From Yersinia entomophaga (lineage in GTDB: Bacteria; Pseudomonadota; Gammaproteobacteria; Enterobacterales; Enterobacteriaceae): a stretch of DNA of 64,000 bases. Shown here piece after piece: positions 5,804 to 50,630 of this stretch (its first letter is position 1; the number at the start of each line of letters is the position of its first letter). Made by a program: the position numbers and the translations under genes. A model generated the notes under the pieces. That model had not been told where the DNA came from, did not search any database, and saw only the letters and a list, made by a program, of their open reading frames with translations. The stretch covers positions 2,367,076 through 2,431,075 of the forward strand of contig NZ_CP010029.1 of assembly GCF_001656035.1 (NCBI RefSeq). Reading direction: 5' to 3'.

Positions 5804-7075
5804 TTATAGAATGCGCTCAGCAACAGCGGCATCGTGCCAGTCCTTAAACTCCTCTAGGAGCAGGTCATAAAGCCGGTCTTCTTTTAACGTGGCAAAGTTA
5901 TCGATAGCAAAGAAATGGGTGTTATCCATCCGACGCTCAGTAAAGCTATCCAACTTTTCCAGAATTCCGTAATTTGTCCCCCCCAGCCCAACGAACTTCC
6001 AAAAAATCGGGTAATTGGCCGAGCGTCGTATGGCATTCTTGATTTCTCGGGTTTTACTGATCCCACCGTCAGTAATAAAAACCACATACACCGGCAGCTC
6101 ACTGCTTTTAAAGAAATCGACAATTTCTTCCATTACCGGTGGCTCATTGTTGACGCCGCCCAATCCAGGCAAATTCTCCCACGTCGTACGTTTAGATGTA
6201 TTTTGAATAGAATCAATATAACCATCGAGATTATCTAGCGTGACATCCGGATATTTACGGTGCCGCTCAGCAAATCCCCAAACATCCATCGAGCCATCGT
6301 CGTCAAACTGTACGGCTAATACCGCGATACGATCTAGCACTGCCTGGACATTTCCTCGATTAAATTGCCCCTTCATCGAACCTGATGCATCCAGCACAAA
6401 AGCCACTTTTGCTTGCACTGATTGTAGTTTGTATTTATTCAGGCTAACGACGGCATTTTTTGCCAGATTGACCAAACGAGGCGCTTTTTGTTCGAGCTTT
6501 TTCTCCAGGCTTACTGTTGGCGTTGAGGTTGAGGTTGAGGTTGAACGAGCTGGCGGTGGTGTCGTTGCGATATCAACGCCAAAATTGATCGCCAGCGGTT
6601 CCAGCCCACCGTTGAATCCTTGCCCAAGTGCTCGCAGCTTCCAATGTCCGCTATATCTGTATATCTCCGCCACGATCAGTGCTTTTTCGCTACGCCCGGA
6701 GGTTTCTACAGTAAATAAAGCTACATTGTCAGTCTCTGTCTCAGCGGAAAAATGTAGTTGTTGAAGGCTGGCAATGGAGTCCTGCCCATCAATAACCAAT
6801 GTAATGGCGACCTTGCTGATTTCGGCATCAATCTTGGAAAGATCCAACGTGATTACGCTGTTTTGCGCTGCACTTTGTAAAGTCAGACTCCCATCCGCCG
6901 CTACCGGATGATTGAAAAAGAAAAAATCATCATCTCCTCTCACTTTTCCGCTGGCGGTCAATAAAAAGGCTGAGGTATCAACCTCGCTTCGGAAAGAAGG
7001 AGTTGTTGGGTAAGAAAGTGTCAGTTTGAGTGAGTTCTGAGTTAACGCGATGTTCTGGCCAGCCTGAAGATGCAT
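5804..7075 (-). CDS. terF: tellurium resistance protein TerF (TerD-like domain + VWA)
   Basis: Two-domain ter protein of 423 residues. Residues 1-172 form a TerD-like beta-sandwich (GQNIALTQ start, [17 protein letters not shown] end). A low-complexity Ser/Thr linker follows ([10 protein letters not shown] near 178-187). A von Willebrand A domain occupies about 220-415, with an intact MIDAS DASGS at 229-233 and the later FITDGG strand. The metal-dependent adhesion site suggests protein-protein assembly, as proposed for ter complexes. An upstream in-frame ATG at 7096 lacks a ribosome site; the ATG at 7075 follows AAGGA by 8 bases and is chosen. A strong terminator separates it from terE, so expression may differ from terZABCDE. 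It was long seen as dispensable for tellurite resistance itself. Confidence 0.9.
6522..6544. repeat. GTTGAG tandem repeat inside terF
   Basis: Almost four copies of the hexamer GTTGAG encode alternating Ser-Thr in the linker between the TerD-like and VWA domains. Copy-number change would stay in frame and alter the linker length. Confidence 0.8.
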
Positions 7076-7143
7076 ATCTAAAGTCCTTGGTTCCATATCA
7101 AACTACAGTGGTCATTTTCCTATTATTTACGGGTTTTACTCAT

Positions 7144-7173
7144 AAAAAACCCCGGTAATCACCGGGGTTTTTT
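7144..7173. terminator. strong bidirectional terminator between terE and terF
   Basis: A perfect 13-bp stem runs AAAAAACCCCGGT (7144-7156), loop AATC, then ACCGGGGTTTTTT (7161-7173). On the minus strand it lies between the terE stop codon and terF. Confidence 0.92.
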
Positions 7174-7186
7174 ATCACTGCGGAAA

Positions 7187-7762
7187 TTAGACGTTTACGC
7201 CGTGCTGGGAGGCCAGCGCAGATAAACCGCCAGCAAAACCCTGGCCTACCGCTTTGAATTTCCACTCGGCACCGTGACGGTACAGTTCGCCGAAGACCAT
7301 CGCCGTTTCGGTAGAAGCGTCTTCAGACAAATCGAAACGAGCAATTTCAGCGCCAGAATCGTTGTTGTAAACACGCATGAAGCTGTTGCTCACCATACCA
7401 AAGTTTTGTTTACGACCTTCGGCATCGTAAATAGTGACGGCAAAGACCAGTTTCTTCACGTCAGCCGGAACTTTGGCCAGATCGATTTTAACCTGCTCAT
7501 CATCGCCGTCGCCTTCACCGGTGCGGTTGTCGCCCTGATGTTCAACGGAAGCACAAGGGCTGAGTTTGTTATTGAAGAAAATGAAGTGAGCGTCAGACAG
7601 CACTTTACCGTCTTCACCGACCATAAATACGGATGCATCCAGATCGAATCCCTGACCGTCGGTCACACGAGAATCCCAACCCAGGCCAACCATAGCGATG
7701 TTCATGGTGGGTGCTTCTTTAGTCAGGGATACGTTGCCGCCTTTAACGAGAGAAACTGCCAT
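7187..7762 (-). CDS. terE: tellurium resistance protein TerE
   Basis: TerD-family beta-sandwich protein of 191 residues, cytosolic or membrane-associated, thought to bind calcium and take part in the stress-responsive ter complex. It is nearly identical to plasmid TerE: starts [13 protein letters not shown], has FDLDASVF near 39-46, the acidic calcium-binding motif [13 protein letters not shown] at 77-89, [22 protein letters not shown] near the end, and finishes HGVNV. The longer frame to 7813 is rejected, because the ATG at 7762 has a GGAG site 7 bases upstream and matches the family start. It lies 68 bases after terD, and a strong terminator follows. It is the last gene of the terZABCDE unit. 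Confidence 0.95.
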
Positions 7763-7830
7763 TTTAAAGCTCCTGCTTATAATTGGATTATTGGGCAACG
7801 ACTTGCTGCCCAAGTATTAAACGGTGGCGA

Positions 7831-8409
7831 TTAGAACGCGTTAATACCGTACTGTGCGCAGACGGAAGCCAGACCGCCAGCGTAACCCTGACCTACTGCA
7901 CGGAATTTCCACTCTGCGCCGTGACGGTACAGTTCGCCGAACAGCATAGCGGTTTCGGTGGAAGCATCTTCGGTTAGATCGTAACGAGCAACTTGAGTCT
8001 GGTTGTCATCATTGACCAAACGGATAAATGCGCCAGAAACCTGACCAAAGTTCTGACGGCGAGTTTGTGCGTCATGAATAGTGACTACGAAGACAATTTT
8101 GTCTACGTCAGCTGGAATATGATCCAGCTTGATTTTCAGGGATTCATCATCGCCATCGCCTTCACCGGTACGGTTATCACCGGTGTGAACCACCGAACCA
8201 TCGGCAGATTTCAGGTTGTTATAGAAAATGAAGTCTGCGTCGCCGCGTACTTTTCCGTTTGCAGCCAGCAGAAATGCTGATGCATCAAGGTCGAAATCCT
8301 GACCATCGGTAGAACGTGCATCCCAACCCAGTCCAATCAGGACATTCTTCATGGTTGGAGCCGCTTTGCTCAGGGAGACATTACCGCCTTTAGATAAAGA
8401 AACGCTCAT
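7831..8409 (-). CDS. terD: tellurium resistance protein TerD
   Basis: TerD-family protein of 192 residues and the close paralogue of the adjacent TerE. It starts [15 protein letters not shown]. It carries FDLDASAF at 39-46 and the same acidic calcium-binding loop [13 protein letters not shown] at 77-89. The conserved [18 protein letters not shown] closes the sandwich and the protein ends YGINAF. TerD and TerC are core determinants of tellurite resistance, phage inhibition and colicin resistance in ter operons. The start has an AGAGG ribosome site 8 bases upstream. The gap to terC is 53 bases with no terminator. Confidence 0.95.
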
Positions 8410-8462
8410 GTGAGTAACCTCTTGAGTTGATATTTTTCGAATTCAAATTCAGGAATCGGGGA

Positions 8463-9506
8463 TCAGTTCCCCTTTTCTTCCTCAGGGTCCGGTTTGCCAG
8501 GGAACATTACGCTGGCAATGATACCTACCGCCAGCACACCCAGAACCACAAACAGACTCGTGGTGGCTGAAATGTTGTAACCGTGGTGCCAAATGTGATC
8601 TGTTGCATTCAAACCCAGTTTCGCGGCGATGAAGAACAGCAACGCAACAACGGCCTTTTCGAGGTGAACCAGATATTGTTTCAATGCTTCCAAAACAAAA
8701 TACAGCGTACGCAGACCCAAAATAGCGAACATCATGGCGCTGTAAACAATCAGAGGCTCGCGGCTGACGGCAATAATTGCCGGTACGGAATCGAAGGCAA
8801 ACATCACGTCAGACAGCTCGACTACCGCAACACACAGCATCAGCGGGGTTGCGTACAGTGCGGCTTTGGTTCCACGCCCTACGGTAACGTCCTGATTTTC
8901 CGGCTTCGCCAGTTCTTCATCAACTTCTTTCTGATTCAGCAAGAAAGCATGACCTTTCAACTTCGGCCAAATCGGGAAGAAGCGTTTTACCATGCGATAA
9001 GCCAGATGCTGCGAATAATCTTCAATTTCATCGCTTTCGCCGCCGCTTCTCAGCATCATCACCGCTGTCCAGGCCACAATCAGCGCAAACACGATTTCAA
9101 CATAAGGCCCAAGGCTCAATAGCCCGGTACCGATAGCGACGAAAATGCCACGGAAGAAGATTGCCCCGATAATCCCCCAATAGAGAACCCGGTGACGGTA
9201 ACGGTCCGGCACCGAGAACCAGGAGAAGATCGCCATCATGACGAACAGGTTATCGACCGAGAGGACTTTCTCCAACGCATAACCCGTAACGAACAGGCTG
9301 GCAACTTCCGCGCCGTGATGAAGATATAGGAAGCCGGCAAACACCATCGCCACAAAGATCCAGAAAATAGACCATAAAGCGGCGCTTTTCAGCGAAATAG
9401 GCTTGTCATGGCGGTGCATGAACAGGTCGATAAAAATGGCTCCCACAGACAAAGCAATAAAGACAATGACTGTTTCAGTTGGGAAGCCGATATGCGTGGA
9501 TACCAT
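8463..9506 (-). CDS. terC: tellurium resistance integral membrane protein TerC
   Basis: Inner-membrane protein of 347 residues and membrane anchor of the ter system (TerC/Alx family, implicated in Mn2+ handling). It has about nine hydrophobic segments. The family signatures HHGAEVASLFVTGYALEKVLSVDN (about 64-87), whose acidic residues lie within the membrane, and LSDVMFAFDSVPAI (about 228-241) are present. A charged cytosolic loop lies between (DEIEDYSQHLAYRMVKRF and the MKEVDEELAKP-like stretch). The C-terminus is PEEEKGN. The ATG at 9506 follows AAGGG by 6 bases. It is flanked by terB (26-base gap) and terD in the same leftward unit. Confidence 0.95.
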   Translation of the reverse strand: MVSTHIGFPTETVIVFIALSVGAIFIDLFMHRHDKPISLKSAALWSIFWIFVAMVFAGFLYLHHGAEVASLFVTGYALEKVLSVDNLFVMMAIFSWFSVPDRYRHRVLYWGIIGAIFFRGIFVAIGTGLLSLGPYVEIVFALIVAWTAVMMLRSGGESDEIEDYSQHLAYRMVKRFFPIWPKLKGHAFLLNQKEVDEELAKPENQDVTVGRGTKAALYATPLMLCVAVVELSDVMFAFDSVPAIIAVSREPLIVYSAMMFAILGLRTLYFVLEALKQYLVHLEKAVVALLFFIAAKLGLNATDHIWHHGYNISATTSLFVVLGVLAVGIIASVMFPGKPDPEEEKGN

Positions 9507-9532
9507 ATATAACCCTTACCAAATACTTATAT

Positions 9533-9988
9533 TCAGAGGCCGAATTCAGCAGGCTCAAAGCCCAGTGCGACGGCGATTTCACGAACTGCCTGTTGTTCAT
9601 TCTGGTCAAAGTCACCGTCACTTTTCGCGACGGCAATCCCGACTCGAATCGCCAACTGAGCGGCTTCAGGCTGATCTTTCAGAGCAAGAATGTGCTTCAT
9701 GGTTTCCCCTTTGCCAATTTCGAGATCGAAATCGAAGCTGGAAACCAGTTTGTTAAAGAATTCAATAACCTCAGAGGTATCAAACACACTTAACTCATCG
9801 GATGCGCGCAGAAAACCAATCATCTTCTGTTTTTCTTCCGCGCTAACGCCGTCGCTGGAAACCGCAATACGTGCACACACGGCCACGGTACCTTGCATGA
9901 ATTTTTTATTTTTGAAGCGACTAACCTGCTTAGTCAGCTCCGCACGACCCGTATTGAATGCGCCTTTAACTTTGTTGAAAAAACTCAT
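9533..9988 (-). CDS. terB: tellurium resistance protein TerB
   Basis: Small helical cytosolic protein of 151 residues with the TerB fold (duplicated acidic helices). In other systems TerB associates with the inner face of the membrane and with TerC. It starts MSFFNKVKGAFN. The two acidic metal-binding segments are VSSDGVSAEEKQKM (about 44-57) and AKSDGDFDQNEQQAV (about 123-137). The frame extends 16 codons upstream, but ATG 9988 has an AAGGAAT site and is the family start. It lies 26 bases behind terA. Confidence 0.93.
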   Translation of the reverse strand: MSFFNKVKGAFNTGRAELTKQVSRFKNKKFMQGTVAVCARIAVSSDGVSAEEKQKMIGFLRASDELSVFDTSEVIEFFNKLVSSFDFDLEIGKGETMKHILALKDQPEAAQLAIRVGIAVAKSDGDFDQNEQQAVREIAVALGFEPAEFGL

Positions 9989-10014
9989 TCTGTATTCCTT
10001 ATTATTGTCTGAAA

Positions 10015-11175
10015 TTACTTTGAACCCGCTTTCCAACGGAATCCCCAGCCAAGCGCTTTATCCATATCGCTGTGGTCTTTAAAGAACTGGTTGATACGTT
10101 CAACTTTGATCGTTCCCTGCTCGTTGACCAACCGGGCAATGGCACACATGTTGCGGCTGTTTTTCCCCTCGGTCATACGCGTTTCTATCGGCGGTTGATC
10201 TGGAATATGGATAGTGACGACGCCGTCGGTATTATCCCAGCTCGCGACACCTTCGTAGATAAAGGCGAAAACCAATACCTGACGAATATTCTTCCATTCC
10301 CGACCGTTGATATGCAGCCATTCGCCCTCTGATACATCCCCGGTACGATCGTCGCCCTGCAATTGCACGAAAGGTTCCTGATGGTACGAACCAAAGCCGT
10401 TCCCCAAAGCCTGAACCACCGACTTATGGCCATCATCCAACTCGACGAAAGCGCCTAAATCCAGATCAACACCTTTCTTCGCGCTAAACATGCTGCGCAG
10501 GCCGGAGGAAGAGCTGCCGCGATGCCAGTTCAGGTTAATGCGGATTTCGCCAAAGTTGTCACGCTTCGCGAGGCTTATCGCTGGTTTATCTTTGGTGAGG
10601 GAAACTTTGCTCAGGTTGATCTTAGCCGGAGCGGGCGTGGGTGCTGGAGCCGGAATCGGCGCAGGTGCAGGTGCAGGAGTATCCGCAATATCGACGCCAA
10701 AATGCTCAGCCAATGGCTTAAGACCGCCGTTGAAGCCCTGCGCGATGAAGCGGAATTTCCATTCGCCGTTACGGCGATACAGTTCGCCCAGAATCAAAGC
10801 GGCTTCCTGACGGCCAGTCAGTTCTACGTTGCCGCAGATCAGCACGTCGTTTCCATCCTCAACCTGCACCGACAAACGTTGCAGACCAGAAACGGTCTGA
10901 TTGCCATCGCAGGTCACCGTAAACGCCACTTTCTCAACGTCTGAACGCAATCGCGTGACATCCACGGTAAACAGAGTGTCGTTGCCTTGAGCAACCAAAC
11001 TAACGGTGTTGTCGTTATTAACAGGCTGACCGTAAAACACCATATCGGCGTCACCCTGCACTTTTCCGTTGGCAAACAGCCGAAATGCAGAGGCATCGAC
11101 GGGTGCGCCGGATAACACTCTTACCGTCAATGACTTAGAAGGTACGGGGGCATTGCCCCCTGGAGTCATATTCAT
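10015..11175 (-). CDS. terA: tellurium resistance protein TerA
   Basis: Tandem TerD-like protein of 386 residues. The first domain (about 10-160) begins with SLTVRVLSGAPVDASAFRLF and ends [17 protein letters not shown]. An alternating Ala-Pro linker of about 20 residues follows (APAPAPIPAPAPTPAPA). The second domain (about 190-386) holds ISLAKRDNFGEIRINLNW, a DLDLGAF motif and a partly conserved acidic loop, GDDRTGDVSEGEW. The ATG at 11175 shares one base with the terZ stop (TAATG), and no separate ribosome site is seen, so translation is probably coupled to terZ. An ATG two codons later is an alternative start. Confidence 0.93.
   Translation of the reverse strand: MNMTPGGNAPVPSKSLTVRVLSGAPVDASAFRLFANGKVQGDADMVFYGQPVNNDNTVSLVAQGNDTLFTVDVTRLRSDVEKVAFTVTCDGNQTVSGLQRLSVQVEDGNDVLICGNVELTGRQEAALILGELYRRNGEWKFRFIAQGFNGGLKPLAEHFGVDIADTPAPAPAPIPAPAPTPAPAKINLSKVSLTKDKPAISLAKRDNFGEIRINLNWHRGSSSSGLRSMFSAKKGVDLDLGAFVELDDGHKSVVQALGNGFGSYHQEPFVQLQGDDRTGDVSEGEWLHINGREWKNIRQVLVFAFIYEGVASWDNTDGVVTIHIPDQPPIETRMTEGKNSRNMCAIARLVNEQGTIKVERINQFFKDHSDMDKALGWGFRWKAGSK
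10626..10681. repeat. low-complexity Ala-Pro linker repeat in terA
   Basis: Repeated GGTGCAG/GGAGC-type units encode the alternating Ala-Pro linker between the two TerD-like halves of TerA. It parallels the Ser-Thr repeat in terF. Confidence 0.65.
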
Positions 11176-11759
11176 TAGCGCACCACGGTAGCAACAATAT
11201 CCGAATGCATATCGTCAATAGTCCGACCGCGGCAGGCGTGACCATGAGCGGTAAAGTCCCATTGCCCGTTGTTACGGCGCAGTGACGCAATAACAATACC
11301 GGTATGAGCCCCCTGGTCGGTTAGCTGGTAACGAGCCATTTCTTTATTATTTCCCCGATCCACGACGCGGCAGAATGCGTTATCTACGTCATTAAACGTC
11401 TGGCCGCGAAAGCTGTTAACGGTGAACGCGAGGTATTCAACCTGATGTGGTAAGCGGTTCAAATCCACGCGAATGACTTCGTCATCGCCGTCGCCTTCAC
11501 CAGTCAGATTGTCGCCGGTATGAACAACGGAGCCGCAAGACGACTCTAATTTACGGAACCAGATAGTATCGATGGTATTACCGGATTTATCCATTAATAC
11601 ACAACCCGCATCAAGATCAATGGAATTATTTCCGCCAAAAAGGCTGCCTAATAACCCTTTTTTCTTAATTGGATCCCAGCCTAAACCAAATTGAAGTTGG
11701 CTAAGAGAAGAAGATTGTTTACTCAGTGAGACCGTCTGGTTTTTGCTTAATGAAACCAT
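11175..11759 (-). CDS. terZ: tellurium resistance protein TerZ
   Basis: TerD-family protein of 194 residues and first gene of the leftward terZABCDE unit. It starts MVSLSKNQTVSLSK. A family-typical insert GLLGSLFGGNN (36-45) is followed by IDLDAGC and the calcium-binding loop [13 protein letters not shown] at 82-94. The end, HACRGRTIDDMHSDI, is typical of TerZ rather than TerD/E. The ATG follows GAAGGAA by 8 bases. A promoter with a good -10 (TATGAT) lies about 70 bases upstream in the divergent control region. Confidence 0.94.
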   Translation of the reverse strand: MVSLSKNQTVSLSKQSSSLSQLQFGLGWDPIKKKGLLGSLFGGNNSIDLDAGCVLMDKSGNTIDTIWFRKLESSCGSVVHTGDNLTGEGDGDDEVIRVDLNRLPHQVEYLAFTVNSFRGQTFNDVDNAFCRVVDRGNNKEMARYQLTDQGAHTGIVIASLRRNNGQWDFTAHGHACRGRTIDDMHSDIVATVVR

Positions 11760-11827: not shown

Positions 11828-11855
11828 ATCATATCATGATGAAGTTCTTGAACAA
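11828..11855 (-). promoter_or_regulatory. predicted sigma-70 promoter of terZABCDE
   Basis: Read on the minus strand: -35 TTGTTC (11850-11855), a 16-base spacer and -10 TATGAT (11828-11833). Initiation is predicted near 11821, leaving a leader of about 60 bases. Confidence 0.55.
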
Positions 11856-12085
11856 GTTAATTTTTAGTCATTATCGTTAACAAATCATTTATTTGAATGA
11901 TATATAAGATATTTTATTTTTATACCCTTAGCGGAATAAGCTTTTTTGCCATCTAAAATCTTTTCATATCTTTACATTATAAACACAAAAAATATAAGTC
12001 ATAATATGATTGACATACAAAAATAACGTCCATAGACTCTCGGCTATTTAATTCGCCTGTCGGCCCTGCGTGGAAATAGATATCA
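11856..12085. other. AT-rich divergent control region of the two ter-linked operons
   Basis: The whole gap is 326 bases between terZ and the ATP-grasp gene and is clearly AT-richer than its flanks. It holds the two divergent promoters listed separately. TerW is known to bind such a region in plasmid ter operons; I could not identify its site by eye. Confidence 0.6.
12010..12038 (+). promoter_or_regulatory. predicted sigma-70 promoter of the ATP-grasp operon
   Basis: A perfect -35 TTGACA (12010-12015), a 17-base spacer and -10 TAGACT (12033-12038). Initiation is predicted near 12045, 40 bases before the start codon. Confidence 0.6.
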
Positions 12086-13150
12086 ATGGCACATAAAATT
12101 TGGCTTATGGAAGGTTTGTCCTCCCAACGGGATATTATTCAGGGCATTAATACTTTCGCTAAAAATAAAGATACGGACATTTTCGTTATTGCTTCCCACC
12201 GTAATGAACGTAATGAAATTCTGTCGCAGGCGGACTTGGCAGTACTGGAGCCAAAAGAAGAAGAACAGCGCCTTTCTTTTATTCTCTCACTGGTTAAAAG
12301 ACTTGATATTCAGGCCATCCATACCGGGCGCAATTCCCTATGGTTCGAATCCCATCGCAACGAAATTGAATGTTCCGGCGTAAAACTCACTACCGGAGCC
12401 CATAGCGTGGCGCGGCTTGAACTGGCGGATGACAAAGTGAGTTTTGCCCAGTTTATGGAGCAGCAAAACCTGCCGGTCGTGCCTTCTATTCGCGTGGAAT
12501 CACTGTCCGAATTATTCCATTTCATCACCCACTCTCCCTTTGGTTTAAAACCTTTGTGCGTAAAACCGGTAAAAGGGATTTATGGCATGGGATTCTGGCG
12601 CTTCGATGACAAGGTTTCGGCTATGGCGGCGTTTACGCATCCGGAAAACCGCAGGGTGAATCCGCACTTGTATCTTCGCGCCCTCGAAGAATCGGATAGT
12701 TTTGAACCGCTGGTGTTGATGCCCTATCTGCCTGGCCCGGAGTACTCCGTTGATATGTTGGTTGAGCGAGGAAAAGTGCTGGCGGCGGTGGCTCGTCGTA
12801 AAGAAGGTGCTCTTCAGTCTCTGGAAAACGCAGGGGAAGCTTACGAGCTGGGGAGAGCCTGTGCCGAGGCCATGCAGGCTGACGGACTGGTCAACGTCCA
12901 AACCCGCCACAATGACAGCGGCAAACCCGAGTTACTTGAAATCAATATGCGCCCTTCCGGCGGCATCGGCTACACGCGATTCAGCGGCGTCAACCTGCCG
13001 GGTTTGTTTGCCCTGCGCCAACTGGGATTAATGAGCCAGCAAGAAGTGATGGACGAACTCCGTAGCGCATTCACCCCCGCTATCGTTCGATCCATTACCG
13101 ACGTTGTGCGTTATAGCCCAACCTTGACCAACCTACTCCCGCAGGAATAG
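12086..13150 (+). CDS. ATP-grasp enzyme of the ter-linked biosynthetic operon
   Basis: Carboxylate-amine/thiol ligase fold of 354 residues, likely forming an amide or peptide-type bond with ATP. After an N-terminal Rossmann-like part (1-110), the ATP-grasp shows the nucleotide lysine K160 in LCVKPVKGIYGMGFWRF, the PGPEYSVD strand at 217-224, and the metal-binding LEINMRPSGG at 284-293. These match the carbamoyl-phosphate-synthase/PurK-like branch. It is the first of five tightly packed genes divergent from terZABCDE, with its own TTGACA promoter. Comparative genomics has linked this gene set to ter systems and proposed a nucleoside-like product. The substrate is unknown. Confidence 0.85.
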   Translation: MAHKIWLMEGLSSQRDIIQGINTFAKNKDTDIFVIASHRNERNEILSQADLAVLEPKEEEQRLSFILSLVKRLDIQAIHTGRNSLWFESHRNEIECSGVKLTTGAHSVARLELADDKVSFAQFMEQQNLPVVPSIRVESLSELFHFITHSPFGLKPLCVKPVKGIYGMGFWRFDDKVSAMAAFTHPENRRVNPHLYLRALEESDSFEPLVLMPYLPGPEYSVDMLVERGKVLAAVARRKEGALQSLENAGEAYELGRACAEAMQADGLVNVQTRHNDSGKPELLEINMRPSGGIGYTRFSGVNLPGLFALRQLGLMSQQEVMDELRSAFTPAIVRSITDVVRYSPTLTNLLPQE

Positions 13151-13155
13151 TCACC

Positions 13156-14298
13156 ATGAATAATCACTCTGGCCTTCAGATATACCGCAGAGAGCTTTCC
13201 TGCGGCACTCTGAGTGTGACGCCAACCGGAGGCATCACCACCTTCGACGACCTGTTCGAAATAGCAGAAAGGCGTAATCCTAAACGGGCATTTCTTTTTG
13301 TCAGCAAAGTGCTTGGCAGACATATACCGGTTTCGCCGACGGTAATGCGTTCGGTTTACCGTCAGTTAGGGGAACAAATTCCCTCCCTGACGACAGGGCC
13401 GGTGCTGTTTATTGGCATGGCTGAAACCGCCGTTGGCCTAGGAGCCGGAGTGTTTGATGAAATTCGACACCGTGTGGCCGAGCCGGTCTATCTCACCTCA
13501 ACCCGGCATCCGGTAGAGGGCGAGTTACTGTGTGAATTCAAAGAGAACCATAGCCACGCCACCGATCATTTGATTTACCTGCCGCAAGACGCCGAGCTGC
13601 GCCGCCGGGTATTACAAGCCAAAACCGTGGTTTTAATCGACGATGAAGCCACCACCGGAAATACCTTTATTAACCTGCTCGCGGCATTAAGAGAGACTGC
13701 GGGTCTACACCATATTCAGCAGGTGATTACGGTCACACTGACCGATTGGAGCGGTAGTTCCATCGCGGAACGCTGCCCGCTGCCGGTGCAAACCGTTTCC
13801 TTGGCGCAGGGAAACTGGCACTGGGAGAAAAATCCTGACGCACCTGTGCCAATCATGCCTTCTGTGAATATCACCGCTTCCGGCAACGTCCCGATAACCG
13901 GTAAACAAAGCTGGGGACGGATCGGAATGAATGAGCCTGAGAATGATCTTGGGCTATCCATTCAGACGACGGAAGGAGAAAAGCTATTGGTATTGGGAAG
14001 CAGCGAATTTGTCTGGGAACCCTTCTTACTGGCGGAGCGGCTGGAAAAACAGGGAGCAGAGGTCAAATACAGTTCAACGACCCGCTCACCGATTGCCACC
14101 AGCTTCGCGATCGAATCGGCCATTGCCTTCACCGATAATTACGGATTAGGCATCCCTAACTTTGTCTATAACGTGGCTCATCAGCGTTTTGACCGAATCT
14201 TGCTATGTATCGAAACGCCGACAGAAAGCGTCGATCCCGCACTGCTGGAGGCGCTGAAAAAAGTGGCTCCCTCCGTTGAGGTTATTTCCTATGAATAA
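13156..14298 (+). CDS. phosphoribosyltransferase with C-terminal TRSP domain
   Basis: PRTase-type protein of 380 residues (PRTase_2 + TRSP families, ter-associated). The N-terminal domain carries the PRPP-binding loop LIDDEATTGNT at about 161-170, with the paired acids and the Thr-Thr-Gly turn of type I PRTases. A linker leads to a C-terminal domain (about 255-380) with the name-giving Thr-Arg-Ser-Pro at 309-312, flanked by GSSEFVWEPFLLAE and NVAHQRFDRILLCIETP. It presumably joins or removes a base-like group on a ribose-phosphate within the pathway. It starts 5 bases after the ATP-grasp stop with an AGGAA site and overlaps the following HAD gene by 8 bases. Confidence 0.85.
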   Translation: MNNHSGLQIYRRELSCGTLSVTPTGGITTFDDLFEIAERRNPKRAFLFVSKVLGRHIPVSPTVMRSVYRQLGEQIPSLTTGPVLFIGMAETAVGLGAGVFDEIRHRVAEPVYLTSTRHPVEGELLCEFKENHSHATDHLIYLPQDAELRRRVLQAKTVVLIDDEATTGNTFINLLAALRETAGLHHIQQVITVTLTDWSGSSIAERCPLPVQTVSLAQGNWHWEKNPDAPVPIMPSVNITASGNVPITGKQSWGRIGMNEPENDLGLSIQTTEGEKLLVLGSSEFVWEPFLLAERLEKQGAEVKYSSTTRSPIATSFAIESAIAFTDNYGLGIPNFVYNVAHQRFDRILLCIETPTESVDPALLEALKKVAPSVEVISYE

Positions 14299-15064
14299 GC
14301 CGGTTATTTTTTCCGATCTGGATGACACCCTGTTTCAAACGCGCCGCAAGATGGTGAATGAGCTGGATTTGCAGCCTTACCGCACCGGTGCCTTGGATCG
14401 CAGCCTGGAACCGCGCAGTTTTATGACGGAAGAACAGACCATGCTGGTGGATTGGATGCTAGAGCATGCCGAGCTGATTCCCGTCACCGCGCGAGGAACC
14501 GAGGAAATCGCTCGGGTCACTATTCCGTTTCGTTCATGGGCCGTGACCACTCATGGTGCCGTGATTCTCGATCCTCAAGGCCAGCCGGACGAAGGCTGGA
14601 AAACGCAGATGCTGGCGGCTTTACAGCCTTACGCAGAAAAGCTAGTCACTATGCAGCGTCAAATGACCGAACTCATGGAAGCCAGAAATATCAACGGCTG
14701 GGCGCGGCTCAATTACGAATATAACCATACGCCGATCTATCTGGTGATGAAGCATCGGGACAGCACCAAACTGGATGAGCTAAACGCGATTGGCGATGAA
14801 ATTGAACAGATTTTCTCAACCGACGGTTTCTATATTCATCGCAACAGCAACAATATTGCCTGGCTACCGGAGCCGGTAGAGAAAGGGTTGGCGGTCACTT
14901 ATTTACTGAACAAACTGCGGGAGGAACGGGGCGTATTTCCGGTTATCGGGCTCGGTGACAGCCTGAGTGACCACCGTTTCATGAAACTCTGCACCTGGTA
15001 TGGATTGCCTCGCCAGAGCCAGTTTGCTGAAAGCATCGCCAGCAAAATCTTTGGAGAAAAATAA
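14291..15064 (+). CDS. HAD-superfamily phosphatase of the ter-linked operon
   Basis: HAD hydrolase of 257 residues with all four motifs: I DLDDT (9-13), II Thr66 in PVTARGTEE, III Lys198 in PVEKG, IV GDSLSD (222-227). The large insert between motifs II and III (about 85-185) is a C2-type cap like those of Cof/sucrose-phosphatase-like enzymes, which act on sugar or nucleotide phosphates. The ATG at 14291 lies inside the end of the PRTase gene and is 5 codons downstream of another in-frame start. The chosen one begins MNKPVIFSDLDDT, the usual spacing of motif I. It probably dephosphorylates a pathway intermediate. Confidence 0.83.
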   Translation: MNKPVIFSDLDDTLFQTRRKMVNELDLQPYRTGALDRSLEPRSFMTEEQTMLVDWMLEHAELIPVTARGTEEIARVTIPFRSWAVTTHGAVILDPQGQPDEGWKTQMLAALQPYAEKLVTMQRQMTELMEARNINGWARLNYEYNHTPIYLVMKHRDSTKLDELNAIGDEIEQIFSTDGFYIHRNSNNIAWLPEPVEKGLAVTYLLNKLREERGVFPVIGLGDSLSDHRFMKLCTWYGLPRQSQFAESIASKIFGEK

Positions 15065-15065
15065 T

Positions 15066-16145
15066 ATGCATGATTTCATCCCTTTTTCCGGTTCCTATCT
15101 ACCGGAAGACGTTCATTTCCTGCTGAAACCGGTCGAAATCGAAATGACACCGGTGGAACAAAAAGAACGGTTGATTCAGTCTGGCGCACGCCACTATTCG
15201 GAAATGCTGAGTCAGGAACCGGAGCCAACCTCTTGGCACTTAGATTTATTCACCCGCGCTCTCGATAACGGCGCAGATCGTCTTGCCAAAGAAGTGGTGA
15301 TGCTGGCTAAGGCCTTGATTCAACGTTTCGGCGATACGCCGATTGTATTAACCAGCCTGGTGCGGGCAGGTGTCCCTCTGGGCGTTATGCTCCACCAAAC
15401 GCTGCGGGCAATGGGAAAGGAATCTCATCATTACGGCATTAGTATTATCCGCGACCGCGGTATTGATACCGTTGCGTTAGATTGGATTGAAGCTCGCCAC
15501 GGTACCGAAGGCATTGTTTTTATTGATGGTTGGACGGGGAAAGGAGCGATTACCGGCGAGTTAGTGCGTTCGCTAAAAGATCGGCCAGGCTATCCAGAAC
15601 AGCCTCGTTTAGTGGTGCTGGCCGATCCCTGCGGATGTTCGTGGCTTGCCGCCAGCGACGACGATTGGTTGATTCCTTTCGGCATCATGGGCGCACCGGT
15701 TTCCGGCTTAATCTCTCGCTCGATCTGGTCGGCAGAAGGGCTGCACGGCTGCGTTCAATGCGATCACCTCAGCCAATATGAATGTAGCCGTAAGCTGGTG
15801 AATACCGTAGCGGCATCTCGCCAGACCTTAGATCTTGCCGCCATCCCCGCCAGCGATTGGGATTCTCAGCAAAAAACCTATCTAAAGCAGCGCAGCGCAC
15901 AAGTTATCAGTGCGCTGGCAGAAAAATATCAGATTTCCAGCGTCAACCGTATTAAGCCCGGCATTGCCGAAGCCACGCGCGCTGTATTACGTCGTGTGCC
16001 TGATCATGTTCTGGTGCGCTCCGTCAATGACCCTGATGTCGCTTTGCTGGTTTATCTCGCCCGCGAGAAAGGAATAACCATTACCGAAGTCGGTGACGAG
16101 ATTGGTCAATACCGCGCAGTCACAATCATTAAAAAGGTACTCTGA
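15066..16145 (+). CDS. StiP-type PRTase-like protein with C-terminal PELOTA-like domain
   Basis: Protein of 359 residues in the family annotated as 'cysteine protease StiP' or PRTase_1. The PRTase-like core has VLTSLVRAGVPLGVML (94-109) and the PRPP-loop-like FIDGWTGKGAIT (152-163). Conserved cysteines sit at 189 and 191 (DPCGC) and in GCVQC and YEC (about 229-240), perhaps a metal site. Residues from about 290 form a small alpha/beta domain (NRIKPGIAEATRAVLRR...EVG) resembling the PELOTA/L7Ae-like RNA-binding tail described in ter-linked proteins. The frame could begin at 15000, inside the HAD gene, but the ATG at 15066 one base after the HAD stop is natural. The cysteine-protease name is not supported by anything I can see. 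Confidence 0.82.
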   Translation: MHDFIPFSGSYLPEDVHFLLKPVEIEMTPVEQKERLIQSGARHYSEMLSQEPEPTSWHLDLFTRALDNGADRLAKEVVMLAKALIQRFGDTPIVLTSLVRAGVPLGVMLHQTLRAMGKESHHYGISIIRDRGIDTVALDWIEARHGTEGIVFIDGWTGKGAITGELVRSLKDRPGYPEQPRLVVLADPCGCSWLAASDDDWLIPFGIMGAPVSGLISRSIWSAEGLHGCVQCDHLSQYECSRKLVNTVAASRQTLDLAAIPASDWDSQQKTYLKQRSAQVISALAEKYQISSVNRIKPGIAEATRAVLRRVPDHVLVRSVNDPDVALLVYLAREKGITITEVGDEIGQYRAVTIIKKVL

Positions 16146-17101
16146 TGAACAAACGGCTCTCCCCTTGGCATTTGGGCGCGACATTGTATATGCCTGCTAC
16201 CCGCACAGACATTGCCGAGGCCATCTTACATAACAAAATTAGTGGGTTACGCTCGCTGGTTATCTGTCTGGAAGATGCGGTAAACGAAGCTGATATTCCC
16301 ACGGCTTTAATCAATTTACGTGAGCTGCTAGCGGTTCTCGCTCAGGCCAAGGCTACTGATGGCAATAGCCATTGGCCGCTGGTTTTCATTCGCCCAAGGC
16401 ATATTGAAATGGGGCAATGGCTAACGGAAAGTCTGGATCTCAGCCCGATCGATGGGTTGGTATTGCCTAAATTCACTTTGGCGTCATTGCCCGAGTGGTG
16501 GGCAATCATACGAGATAGCCATTTATGCATGATGCCCACGCTCGAAACCGAAGAGGTTTTCGACGTCGTTCAAATGCGCCAGCTTGCCAGTGAGCTACAA
16601 GCTCATCCTTGCCATCAGCGTATTATTGCTTTGCGTATTGGGGGCAACGATCTGATGAATGTGATTTCTTTGCGACGAACGCGTGATTTCACTTTGTACG
16701 ACGGCCCTATGGGTTATGTGATTAAGATGCTGGTGGCCGTTTTTTCCTCGCGGGATTTTGCCCTAACAGCGCCGGTCTGCGAACACATTGATGACCATCA
16801 GGTGATGAATAAAGAGCTGGCTCTTGATATGGCTCACGGTCTGGTTGGGAAAACAGCCATTCATCCTAATCAAATCAGTAAGATAGAACAGGCCTTAATG
16901 GTATCACCCACGGATTATGCCGATGCATTACGTATCCTGAACTCAACCCAGGCCGTATTTAAATCTCAGGGATCAATGTGTGAACCCGCAACCCACCGTC
17001 GCTGGGCCTCCGGTATCCTCGCTCGCGCTCAGGTTTATGGTATTAGTGCGGAACCGGGGCAAGACGGCGTACGTCTCATGACCGTGACTCAGAACAGCTG
17101 A
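16145..17101 (+). CDS. HpcH/HpaI aldolase / citrate lyase beta-like protein
   Basis: TIM-barrel C-C lyase of 318 residues, CitE-like. It shows GATLYMPATRTDIAEAI at the start, the acidic ICLEDAVNEADI (about 41-52), FIRPRHIEMG (about 79-88), DGLVLPKF, the ETEEVFDV metal region and LRIGGNDLMN, and ends with the family HP-Q turn (GKTAIHPNQISKIEQAL). Such enzymes cleave or form C-C bonds of acyl-CoA or keto acids, using Mg2+ held by Glu/Asp. It probably provides or adds a carbon unit in the pathway. The ATG shares its A with the TGA of the preceding gene (TGATG), so translation is coupled. Last gene of the operon. Confidence 0.85.
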   Translation: MNKRLSPWHLGATLYMPATRTDIAEAILHNKISGLRSLVICLEDAVNEADIPTALINLRELLAVLAQAKATDGNSHWPLVFIRPRHIEMGQWLTESLDLSPIDGLVLPKFTLASLPEWWAIIRDSHLCMMPTLETEEVFDVVQMRQLASELQAHPCHQRIIALRIGGNDLMNVISLRRTRDFTLYDGPMGYVIKMLVAVFSSRDFALTAPVCEHIDDHQVMNKELALDMAHGLVGKTAIHPNQISKIEQALMVSPTDYADALRILNSTQAVFKSQGSMCEPATHRRWASGILARAQVYGISAEPGQDGVRLMTVTQNS

Positions 17102-17420: not shown

Positions 17421-17894
17421 ATGCAACTCAGCACAAAACAGGCTCGAATCTTCACACTGGCAAATATTCTGGGTTCGGGAAAACCAGTCTCTGCCATTCG
17501 AATTATTTCGTCCCTTGATTGTTCAGAGCCTACGCTGACCCGCGCGCTAAAAGAACTGCGTGAATCCTATTCAGCTGAAATAAAGTACAGCAAAGCCACT
17601 CATTCTTATCAGCTGGTTAGCCCCGGGAATCTGGATAAAAAAGCCTTACGTAGTATGGCCAAAGTACTAACCGCCCACGCGGAGTCAAAAAACAACGAGG
17701 TGGTTAGTCGAGTGTTTCTTGATAAGGATAAAAAGCGAGCGGTGTCGCTTTCGCTCAAAGGATCTATCTTACGTAAAATAGATAAACTGTCCCGATTGAT
17801 CGAATCCACCCGTAGCGAAGCCGTAGAAATGCTTGCCAATAACTGCATTGATGATTTGATCCGTCATCTCCAAACCGCCAAAAAAGAGAAATAA
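17421..17894 (+). CDS. terW: tellurite-resistance regulator TerW
   Basis: DNA-binding regulator of 157 residues. The winged-helix domain (about 1-70) opens MQLSTKQARIFTLANILGSGKPVSA. The recognition helix region is SEPTLTRALKELRESY. The rest (about 95-150) is a helical, basic ribbon-helix-helix-like segment (RAVSLSLKGSILRKIDKLSRLIESTRSEAVEMLA). TerW from uropathogenic E. coli and plasmids binds the ter promoter region, so it is the likely controller of the divergent 11.8-12.1 kb region. It lies 319 bases after the CitE-like gene, probably with its own promoter. The start has an AGGCGG site 8 bases upstream. Confidence 0.88.
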   Translation: MQLSTKQARIFTLANILGSGKPVSAIRIISSLDCSEPTLTRALKELRESYSAEIKYSKATHSYQLVSPGNLDKKALRSMAKVLTAHAESKNNEVVSRVFLDKDKKRAVSLSLKGSILRKIDKLSRLIESTRSEAVEMLANNCIDDLIRHLQTAKKEK

Positions 17895-50407: not shown

Positions 50408-50630
50408 AAACACCTACTTACGCAGCATTGCGTAAGCCAGAAGAGGTGCGTCGCCCAGGTAGAGTGTCGGAGGAGCCGTAATCCGCTGAAGACATTTGAG
50501 GGGGAGCGACGCCGAGACGTGATGACTTCGGCTATCACCACGTCGACTACAGGGGCTGAATCCCCTGGGTTGTCACCGGAAACCGTTCATTTAGAATGGT
50601 TAGCAAGGTGGAGCGCTTCTGGGTGTACCC
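50408..50630 (+). ncRNA. lysine riboswitch (L box) of lysC
   Basis: Conserved lysine-aptamer blocks in order: GCCAGAAGAGGTGCG (50437-50451), TGTCGGAGGAGCCG, GAGGGGGAGCGACGCCGAGA, CGGCTATCAC, the hallmark ACAGGGGCTGAATCCCCTGG (50550-50569), TTGTCACCGG and the terminal CGCTTCTGGGTG. The order and sequence match the E. coli lysC leader. Lysine binding should sequester the lysC start region and reduce translation. Confidence 0.96.

Follow-up and report, generated by a model that had tools for sequence, protein, structure and literature searches.

The stretch analysed here, referred to below as the window, comprises 64,000 nucleotides from a single-contig genome of 4.28 Mb (positions 2367076-2431075) and carries on its forward strand an operon of five intact genes (12086-17101, assigned by open reading frame (ORF) calls and Pfam matches) that is linked to the ter stress genes. 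The StiP protein encoded by this operon is 97% identical to StiP of Yersinia nurmii, so the host is, to judge from this protein, a Yersinia close to Y. nurmii. The first gene (12086..13150) codes for an ATP-grasp ligase of the ATPgrasp_Ter family, which is carbamoyl-phosphate-synthase-like (PF15632, 3e-41), and the second (13156..14298) for a phosphoribosyltransferase (PRTase) of the PRTase_2 family with a C-terminal TRSP domain (PF15609, 3e-62; PF12500, 6e-22). The third (14291..15064, with an ATG start and an alternative TTG start at 14276) encodes a HAD phosphatase of the PDB 6d3v family. The fourth is StiP (15066..16145), composed of a PRTase-fold domain and a PELOTA/L7Ae-like C-terminal domain (PF11202, 3e-90; PF15608, 4e-28); its ORF begins mechanically at 15000 and has an ATG start at 15066. 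The fifth gene (16145..17101) encodes a CitE-like C-C bond lyase (C-C_Bond_Lyase, PF15617, 5e-111). With the ATG starts at 14291 and 15066 the intergenic spacings are +5, -8, +1 and -1, a layout of one operon from which co-transcription of the five genes would be expected. The ORF calls thus agree with the genes and spacings given in an earlier sequence-only reading of this stretch. The families named there were recovered as well, including PF12500, PF15608, PF15609 and PF11202, and in the case of the HAD protein, which has zero Pfam matches at 0.001, through a solved phosphatase.

The operon is divergent from terZABCDEF (5804..11759, reverse strand; PF02342, PF05099, PF03741, PF10138), so that terD-family, terB and terC genes lie beside it in the window, and the gene terW (17421..17894, forward strand), a putative regulator with a homologue in 23 of 80 related loci, follows downstream. 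The product of terW gave only sub-threshold helix-turn-helix matches against Pfam. Purifying selection acts on all five operon genes in comparison with Y. nurmii, with ratios of nonsynonymous to synonymous substitution rates (dN/dS) that run, from the first gene to the fifth, 0.126, 0.094, 0.121, 0.091 and 0.063. Of the 69 loci that extend at least 9 kb to each side of StiP, a criterion that leaves out 11 of the 80 loci, 52 keep the order ATP-grasp, PRTase_2, HAD, StiP, lyase. The arrangement is therefore beyond chance, given the low dN/dS and the conserved order. When 876 unassigned ORFs were clustered, with families down to four loci listed, no sixth pathway enzyme was recognised; the neighbouring families that emerged are presumably TerY/kinase/phosphatase, TelA and AIM24-type proteins, to judge by their sequences. 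A reading as a defence system was also tried with PADLOC and rejected, as it gave weak matches only, both for gene 2 (PRTase_III-A, 7e-4; ShosT, 1.6e-3).

The distribution of the genes was surveyed in 299 Pseudomonadota genomes and in the 80 related loci, which were taken as the best among 596 or more candidates, lean to Pseudomonadota and include related rows that were all counted (genomes and loci are given by G and L numbers). StiP exceeded the cut-off in 10 of the 299 genomes and PRTase_2 in the same 10 (Fisher 7e-19, relatedness not being corrected for), and the HAD profile found nine of these 10. For the lyase and the ATP-grasp protein, presence was set in this analysis at more than 100 bits. 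The lyase passed this cut in 6/10 StiP genomes, falling below it in G080, G099, G104 and G209, and ATPgrasp_Ter passed it in 3/10 (G000, G022 and G280); weaker matches to the ATP-grasp in all 10 and to the lyase in G099 and G209 look like generic paralogues. TerD is present in 31 of the 299 genomes, among them nine of the 10 with StiP. At the level of loci, HAD was found in all 80, PRTase_2 in 79, the lyase in 77, TerD-family genes in 73 and the ATP-grasp in 62, which bears out the ter linkage proposed in the earlier reading. Because of this distribution in StiP genomes and loci, the two PRTase-fold proteins form the core of the system, HAD is almost core, and the lyase and the ATP-grasp are accessories. 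A five-step scheme is therefore not obligatory, and the lyase and the ATP-grasp cannot be its required first and last steps.

Other gene arrangements were observed among the loci. Four Gram-positive plasmid loci (L107-L110) have the order lyase, PRTase_2, StiP, HAD. Rhizobial loci (Rhizobium, Mesorhizobium) and G209 (L081, L082, L106, L114) carry PRTase_2, StiP and HAD, and nothing in the stretch examined matched a ter family; G209 has no TerD match genome-wide, and type III secretion genes lie near the locus on the Rhizobium plasmid L106. On the viral-classed contig L104 (7901-16360), the lyase, PRTase_2, StiP, HAD and ATP-grasp genes are followed by genes for a macrodomain protein and an ADP-ribosylglycohydrolase, and the 21 kb examined contain no match to the TerD family. 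Two genomes of about 2 Mb (L115, L116) contain a compact cluster of two TerD-family genes, PRTase_2, HAD, StiP, a membrane protein that is exchanger-like as judged by eye, and TerB; neither a lyase nor an ATP-grasp was matched within the stretch. In L065, HAD takes the form of two neighbouring frames, which lie between PRTase_2 and StiP and are possibly a broken copy.

The key motifs listed in the sequence-only reading are all present and conserved in aligned relatives, the alignments being hand-thinned selections of rows. In PRTase_2 the loop DDEATTGNT is the canonical loop of type I PRTases for phosphoribosyl pyrophosphate (PRPP), with two acids followed by T-G-x-T; D162, D163, E164, G168 and T170 are conserved in 50/50 sequences and T167 in 49/50, and the predicted model of PRTase_2-TRSP has a mean predicted local distance difference test score (pLDDT) of 92.9. 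StiP also has a PRTase fold, the fold comparison with PRTases covering mainly residues 52-335; families missing from its list of fold matches are not thereby excluded. Its stretch FIDGWTGKGAIT is conserved, yet it is no canonical PRPP motif, so that of the two PRTases put forward earlier one has the expected loop and the other the fold with an altered loop. This loop reads D154 G155 W156 x x K159 G160 x I162, with G155 in 48/49 sequences and the other named positions in 49/49; the profile alignment by which it was registered on PRTase_2 is weak (probability 13, E 0.002). The C-terminus of StiP matches PELOTA_1 in Pfam (4e-28), yet the match to the archaeal L7Ae profile is weak (best E 0.0022), and the motif K297, E302, T304, R305, R309, P312 is conserved in 49/49. 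PELOTA_1 of the ter-linked system is described in a passage of PMC5571608.

The HAD protein belongs to the trehalose-phosphatase family and has its catalytic residues, with D9, D11, T66, K198, D223 and D227 conserved in 40/40 sequences. The window protein matches the structures 6d3v, 6d3w and 6cj0, named "Trehalose phosphatase", at 5.5e-42 with 36% identity, and the family profile matches them at about 1e-100; mannosyl-3-phosphoglycerate phosphatase (1.7e-5) and sucrose phosphatase (0.0017) are weakly matched. By these profile matches, the solved relatives are phosphatases of glycosidic sugar phosphates. The phosphate remover of the earlier reading thus already has a solved relative, one that was crystallised as a trehalose phosphatase. 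Hydrolysis of trehalose 6-phosphate by an extrachromosomal enzyme of Pseudomonas aeruginosa was reportedly described by Cross et al. in 2018. If this activity is right, phosphorylated glycosides are among the substrates of the HAD enzyme, and a 5-phosphoribosyl intermediate would fit in with that. The ter operon of a P. aeruginosa plasmid (L112) encodes a HAD protein that shares 233 of 251 positions (93%) with 6d3v and has its cysteines at residues 85 and 231. The same two cysteines are named for an extrachromosomal P. aeruginosa enzyme in a passage of PMC6838324, where phosphatase activity was measured and inhibited with a Ki of 2.1 uM; in the same passage trehalose 6-phosphate is named as the substrate for the nematode enzymes. 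Owing to the 233/251 identity and the matching Cys85 and Cys231, the HAD of the ter operon would be of one enzyme family with both the protein that was crystallised and the enzyme that was assayed. No statement linking this HAD to ter genes was found in the search listings of an open-licence library or in passages of PMC11046441 and PMC6838324. Since crystal structures and a phosphatase assay have been published for this family, substrate screening can begin there.

In the ATP-grasp protein, K160, E285 and N287 are conserved in 30/30 sequences, and its profile matches PDB 2pn1 and carbamoyl-phosphate synthase. The lyase belongs to the CitE/HpcH-HpaI lyases by family match and by acidic and Arg active-site residues. 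Its profile matches CitE-family lyases and PDB 3qll (7e-17), and E43, D44, E134, D169, H240, P241 and Q243 are conserved in 31/31 sequences, as is R83 (31/31); by role we take E43, R83, E134 and D169 to be the active-site residues. A RipC model gave the lyase 37/375 bits, far under the cut-off.

Two palindromes lie between the divergent ter genes and the operon. The palindrome ATCATATCATGAT on the terZ side (11828..11840) is exact and lies 170 bp from the other (11998..12010), a candidate TerW site that has one mismatch to ATCATANNATGAT and takes in the first base of the operon's -35 element. This element is part of a promoter-like site (12010..12038, forward strand, TTGACA-17-TAGACT), a match to the consensus only and the best of six sites (shuffles mean 2.7). 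The exact ATCATANNATGAT occurs in 22 of the 23 TerW-bearing loci, in 0/57 others and in 1/400 shuffled loci, an association that is confounded with Enterobacterales descent. In the remaining TerW-bearing locus (L026), both sites have one mismatch. The distance from the first to the last site, at up to one mismatch, is 155-171 bp in 21/23 TerW-bearing loci. In three loci of Enterobacterales that lack TerW (L043, L045, L048), no site with up to one mismatch lies between ter and the operon. The palindrome thus marks both putative divergent promoters in TerW-bearing loci, and the palindromes are likely TerW operators. TerW palindrome sites have already been proposed in Pectobacterium according to a passage of PMC7843439, which also reports that PhoP represses terZABCDE and the first operon gene more than twofold and the next four genes 1.7-1.9x.

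We propose that the operon may encode a pathway for PRPP-dependent ribosylation in the service of the ter stress system, a reading to which we give about even odds, the role of StiP being the main reservation. In its favour are the PRPP loop kept by PRTase_2, the joint occurrence of the two PRTase-fold proteins and, nearly always, HAD, the glycosidic sugar phosphates handled by the solved HAD relatives, the palindromes at both putative divergent promoters together with the PhoP repression seen in Pectobacterium, and TerD in nine of the 10 StiP genomes. In such a pathway, PRTase_2-TRSP would move the 5-phosphoribosyl group from PRPP onto an acceptor, and HAD would take off the 5'-phosphate to leave a nucleoside- or glycoside-like compound. 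StiP, with its altered phosphoribosyl-binding loop and L7Ae/PELOTA-like domain, could carry out a second transfer or serve in sensing or docking of the product. The two accessory enzymes would act where they occur, the CitE-like lyase to supply or trim a carbon unit and the ATP-grasp to add an amide-linked group. In TerW-bearing Enterobacterales, the operon and terZABCDEF would share TerW-type operators, and the product would probably be a ligand of the Ter proteins. Ribosylation by a PRTase and a phosphatase has a precedent in butirosin/ribostamycin biosynthesis (BtrL/BtrP). The ribosylated small molecule suggested in the sequence-only reading accordingly is still the best guess, although three parts of the scheme attached to it fail as written.

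Families, motif conservation, the division into core and accessory genes, the StiP fold and the shared palindromes are results of this analysis; the phosphatase assay on a relative of HAD and the joint regulation in Pectobacterium come from other work, and substrates, step order, product and role are what we infer. Several observations weigh against the proposal. StiP lacks the canonical PRPP loop. Of the 31 TerD genomes, 22 are without StiP; conversely, three rhizobial loci and G209 carry the core without TerD-family genes. HAD is absent from G114 in the profile search and was not found in L109, and the activity reported for its relative is that of a trehalose-6-phosphate phosphatase and not one on a ribosyl phosphate. 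TerW-type co-regulation is not general, because none of the 57 TerW-less loci has the exact palindrome. Furthermore, the operon is not needed for tellurite resistance, since terZ-F alone confers it in E. coli MG1655, as stated in a passage of PMC8115787.

The features of StiP would also fit an action on RNA, in which the protein would dock a structured RNA through its L7Ae/PELOTA-like domain and use its PRTase-fold domain to exchange or add a ribosyl group or base there, the donor being made by the other enzymes. The invariant PELOTA motif and the match of its profile to archaeal L7Ae point in this direction, as do K159 and I162, which occupy the position of T-G-x-T in PRTase_2, and the presence of 1ufr, named PyrR, among the best StiP fold matches; PyrR is a PRTase-fold protein binding pyr mRNA. 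However, the match to L7Ae is a weak one, in the N-E pair of L7Ae the Asn is replaced by Ala in 45/49 sequences, and the window-wide Rfam scan gave no element above its cut-offs near the operon, its one match being a lysine riboswitch elsewhere. We regard an RNA-acting StiP as unlikely, and its more specific form, an RNA-directed PRTase-fold enzyme whose K-G-x-I loop would hold a ribose within the RNA chain and not free PRPP, as more doubtful still. If it were true, the operon would serve to mark RNA with a ribosyl group or a modified base as part of the ter stress or phage response. A salvage or detoxification role, in which the enzymes would degrade or repair a stress-made ribosyl or coenzyme A adduct, is likewise improbable. 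HAD, lyase and PRTases can all run in catabolism or repair by what is known of their families, and on L104 the genes stand beside those for a macrodomain protein and an ADP-ribosylglycohydrolase. This context is, however, confined to one contig and to a gene of phage ME3 annotated as an Appr-1-p processing protein without a Pfam match; ATP-grasp enzymes are typically ligases, and the tight co-occurrence with ter genes also speaks against salvage.

That trehalose 6-phosphate is the true substrate of HAD, and the operon part of a trehalose pathway, would agree with the names of the solved relatives, with the 93% identity of 6d3v to the P. aeruginosa plasmid ter HAD and with Cys85 and Cys231 of the assayed enzyme. 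The window genome also carries a trehalose phosphotransferase system (PTS), and such a system yields trehalose 6-phosphate on import. However, OtsA gave 0 matches in the window genome, with a positive E. coli control, and was not found in 9/10 StiP genomes including this one (present in 1/10), which makes trehalose 6-phosphate unlikely as a general HAD substrate. The clustered ORFs of related loci include no trehalose gene among the conserved neighbours. Trehalose as the main role was rejected on the absence of OtsA, with the PTS as a caveat, and we give the pathway very little credence. Pfam and RefSeq names call StiP a cysteine protease, which is hardly credible beyond these names and was rejected on its PRTase fold and on its cysteines, none of which is invariant, the best Cys column reaching 41/49; correcting the name "cysteine protease StiP" matters for annotation.

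As regards the surroundings of the operon, the guanine-cytosine content of the whole window is 0.497, compared with 0.489 in ter and 0.516 in the operon, so base composition gives no sign of a recent import of the locus. A second HAD-family gene (PF12710, 5029-5748) adjoins terF, and its profile has matches in 29 of 87 scanned sources. The lysine riboswitch (50433-50626) is the sole Rfam match above the gathering score.

A ter-linked operon for a nucleoside-like metabolite was reportedly predicted by Anantharaman, Iyer and Aravind in 2012, so that, as the earlier reading had it, the families and their ter linkage were in print from comparative genomics. That work is cited in PMC8115787, PMC7843439, PMC7824862 and PMC5571608, and according to these papers the system has the same families and ter linkage as the window operon; nothing was found that sets the window copy apart. 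The five-gene ter-linked system is already known, because it is described in the Klebsiella, Pectobacterium, phage and PELOTA_1 papers. For Klebsiella, a passage of PMC8115787 gives 14 potential biosynthetic genes opposite terZABCDEF and a predicted nucleoside-like metabolite. In Pectobacterium versatile, the operon from OA04_37930 has, according to PMC7843439, five uncharacterised genes divergent from terZABCDE and two proposed TerW sites, like the window; it differs in its host and in that PhoP repression was shown for the P. versatile operon. Acinetobacter phage ME3 (L020) has adjacent PRTase_2, HAD and StiP genes near ter genes (PMC7824862), but no lyase or ATP-grasp was found in the 21 kb examined of its 235 kb. 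The extrachromosomal trehalose-6-phosphate phosphatase of P. aeruginosa (6d3v, 6d3w, 6cj0) is a homologue of operon gene 3, from which the window HAD differs with 36% identity and in a genome where OtsA was not found. Relatives of the five-gene stretch occur in 2472 of the 72,556 plasmid records of one collection, at 60-80% DNA identity and with at least 80% coverage in 2340, and the product or ligand of the ter genes is a long-standing question. To this known system the present analysis adds the ranking into core and accessory genes, the HAD relative and the StiP loop, and the core trio of PRTase_2-TRSP, StiP and HAD narrows the biochemistry to three proteins.

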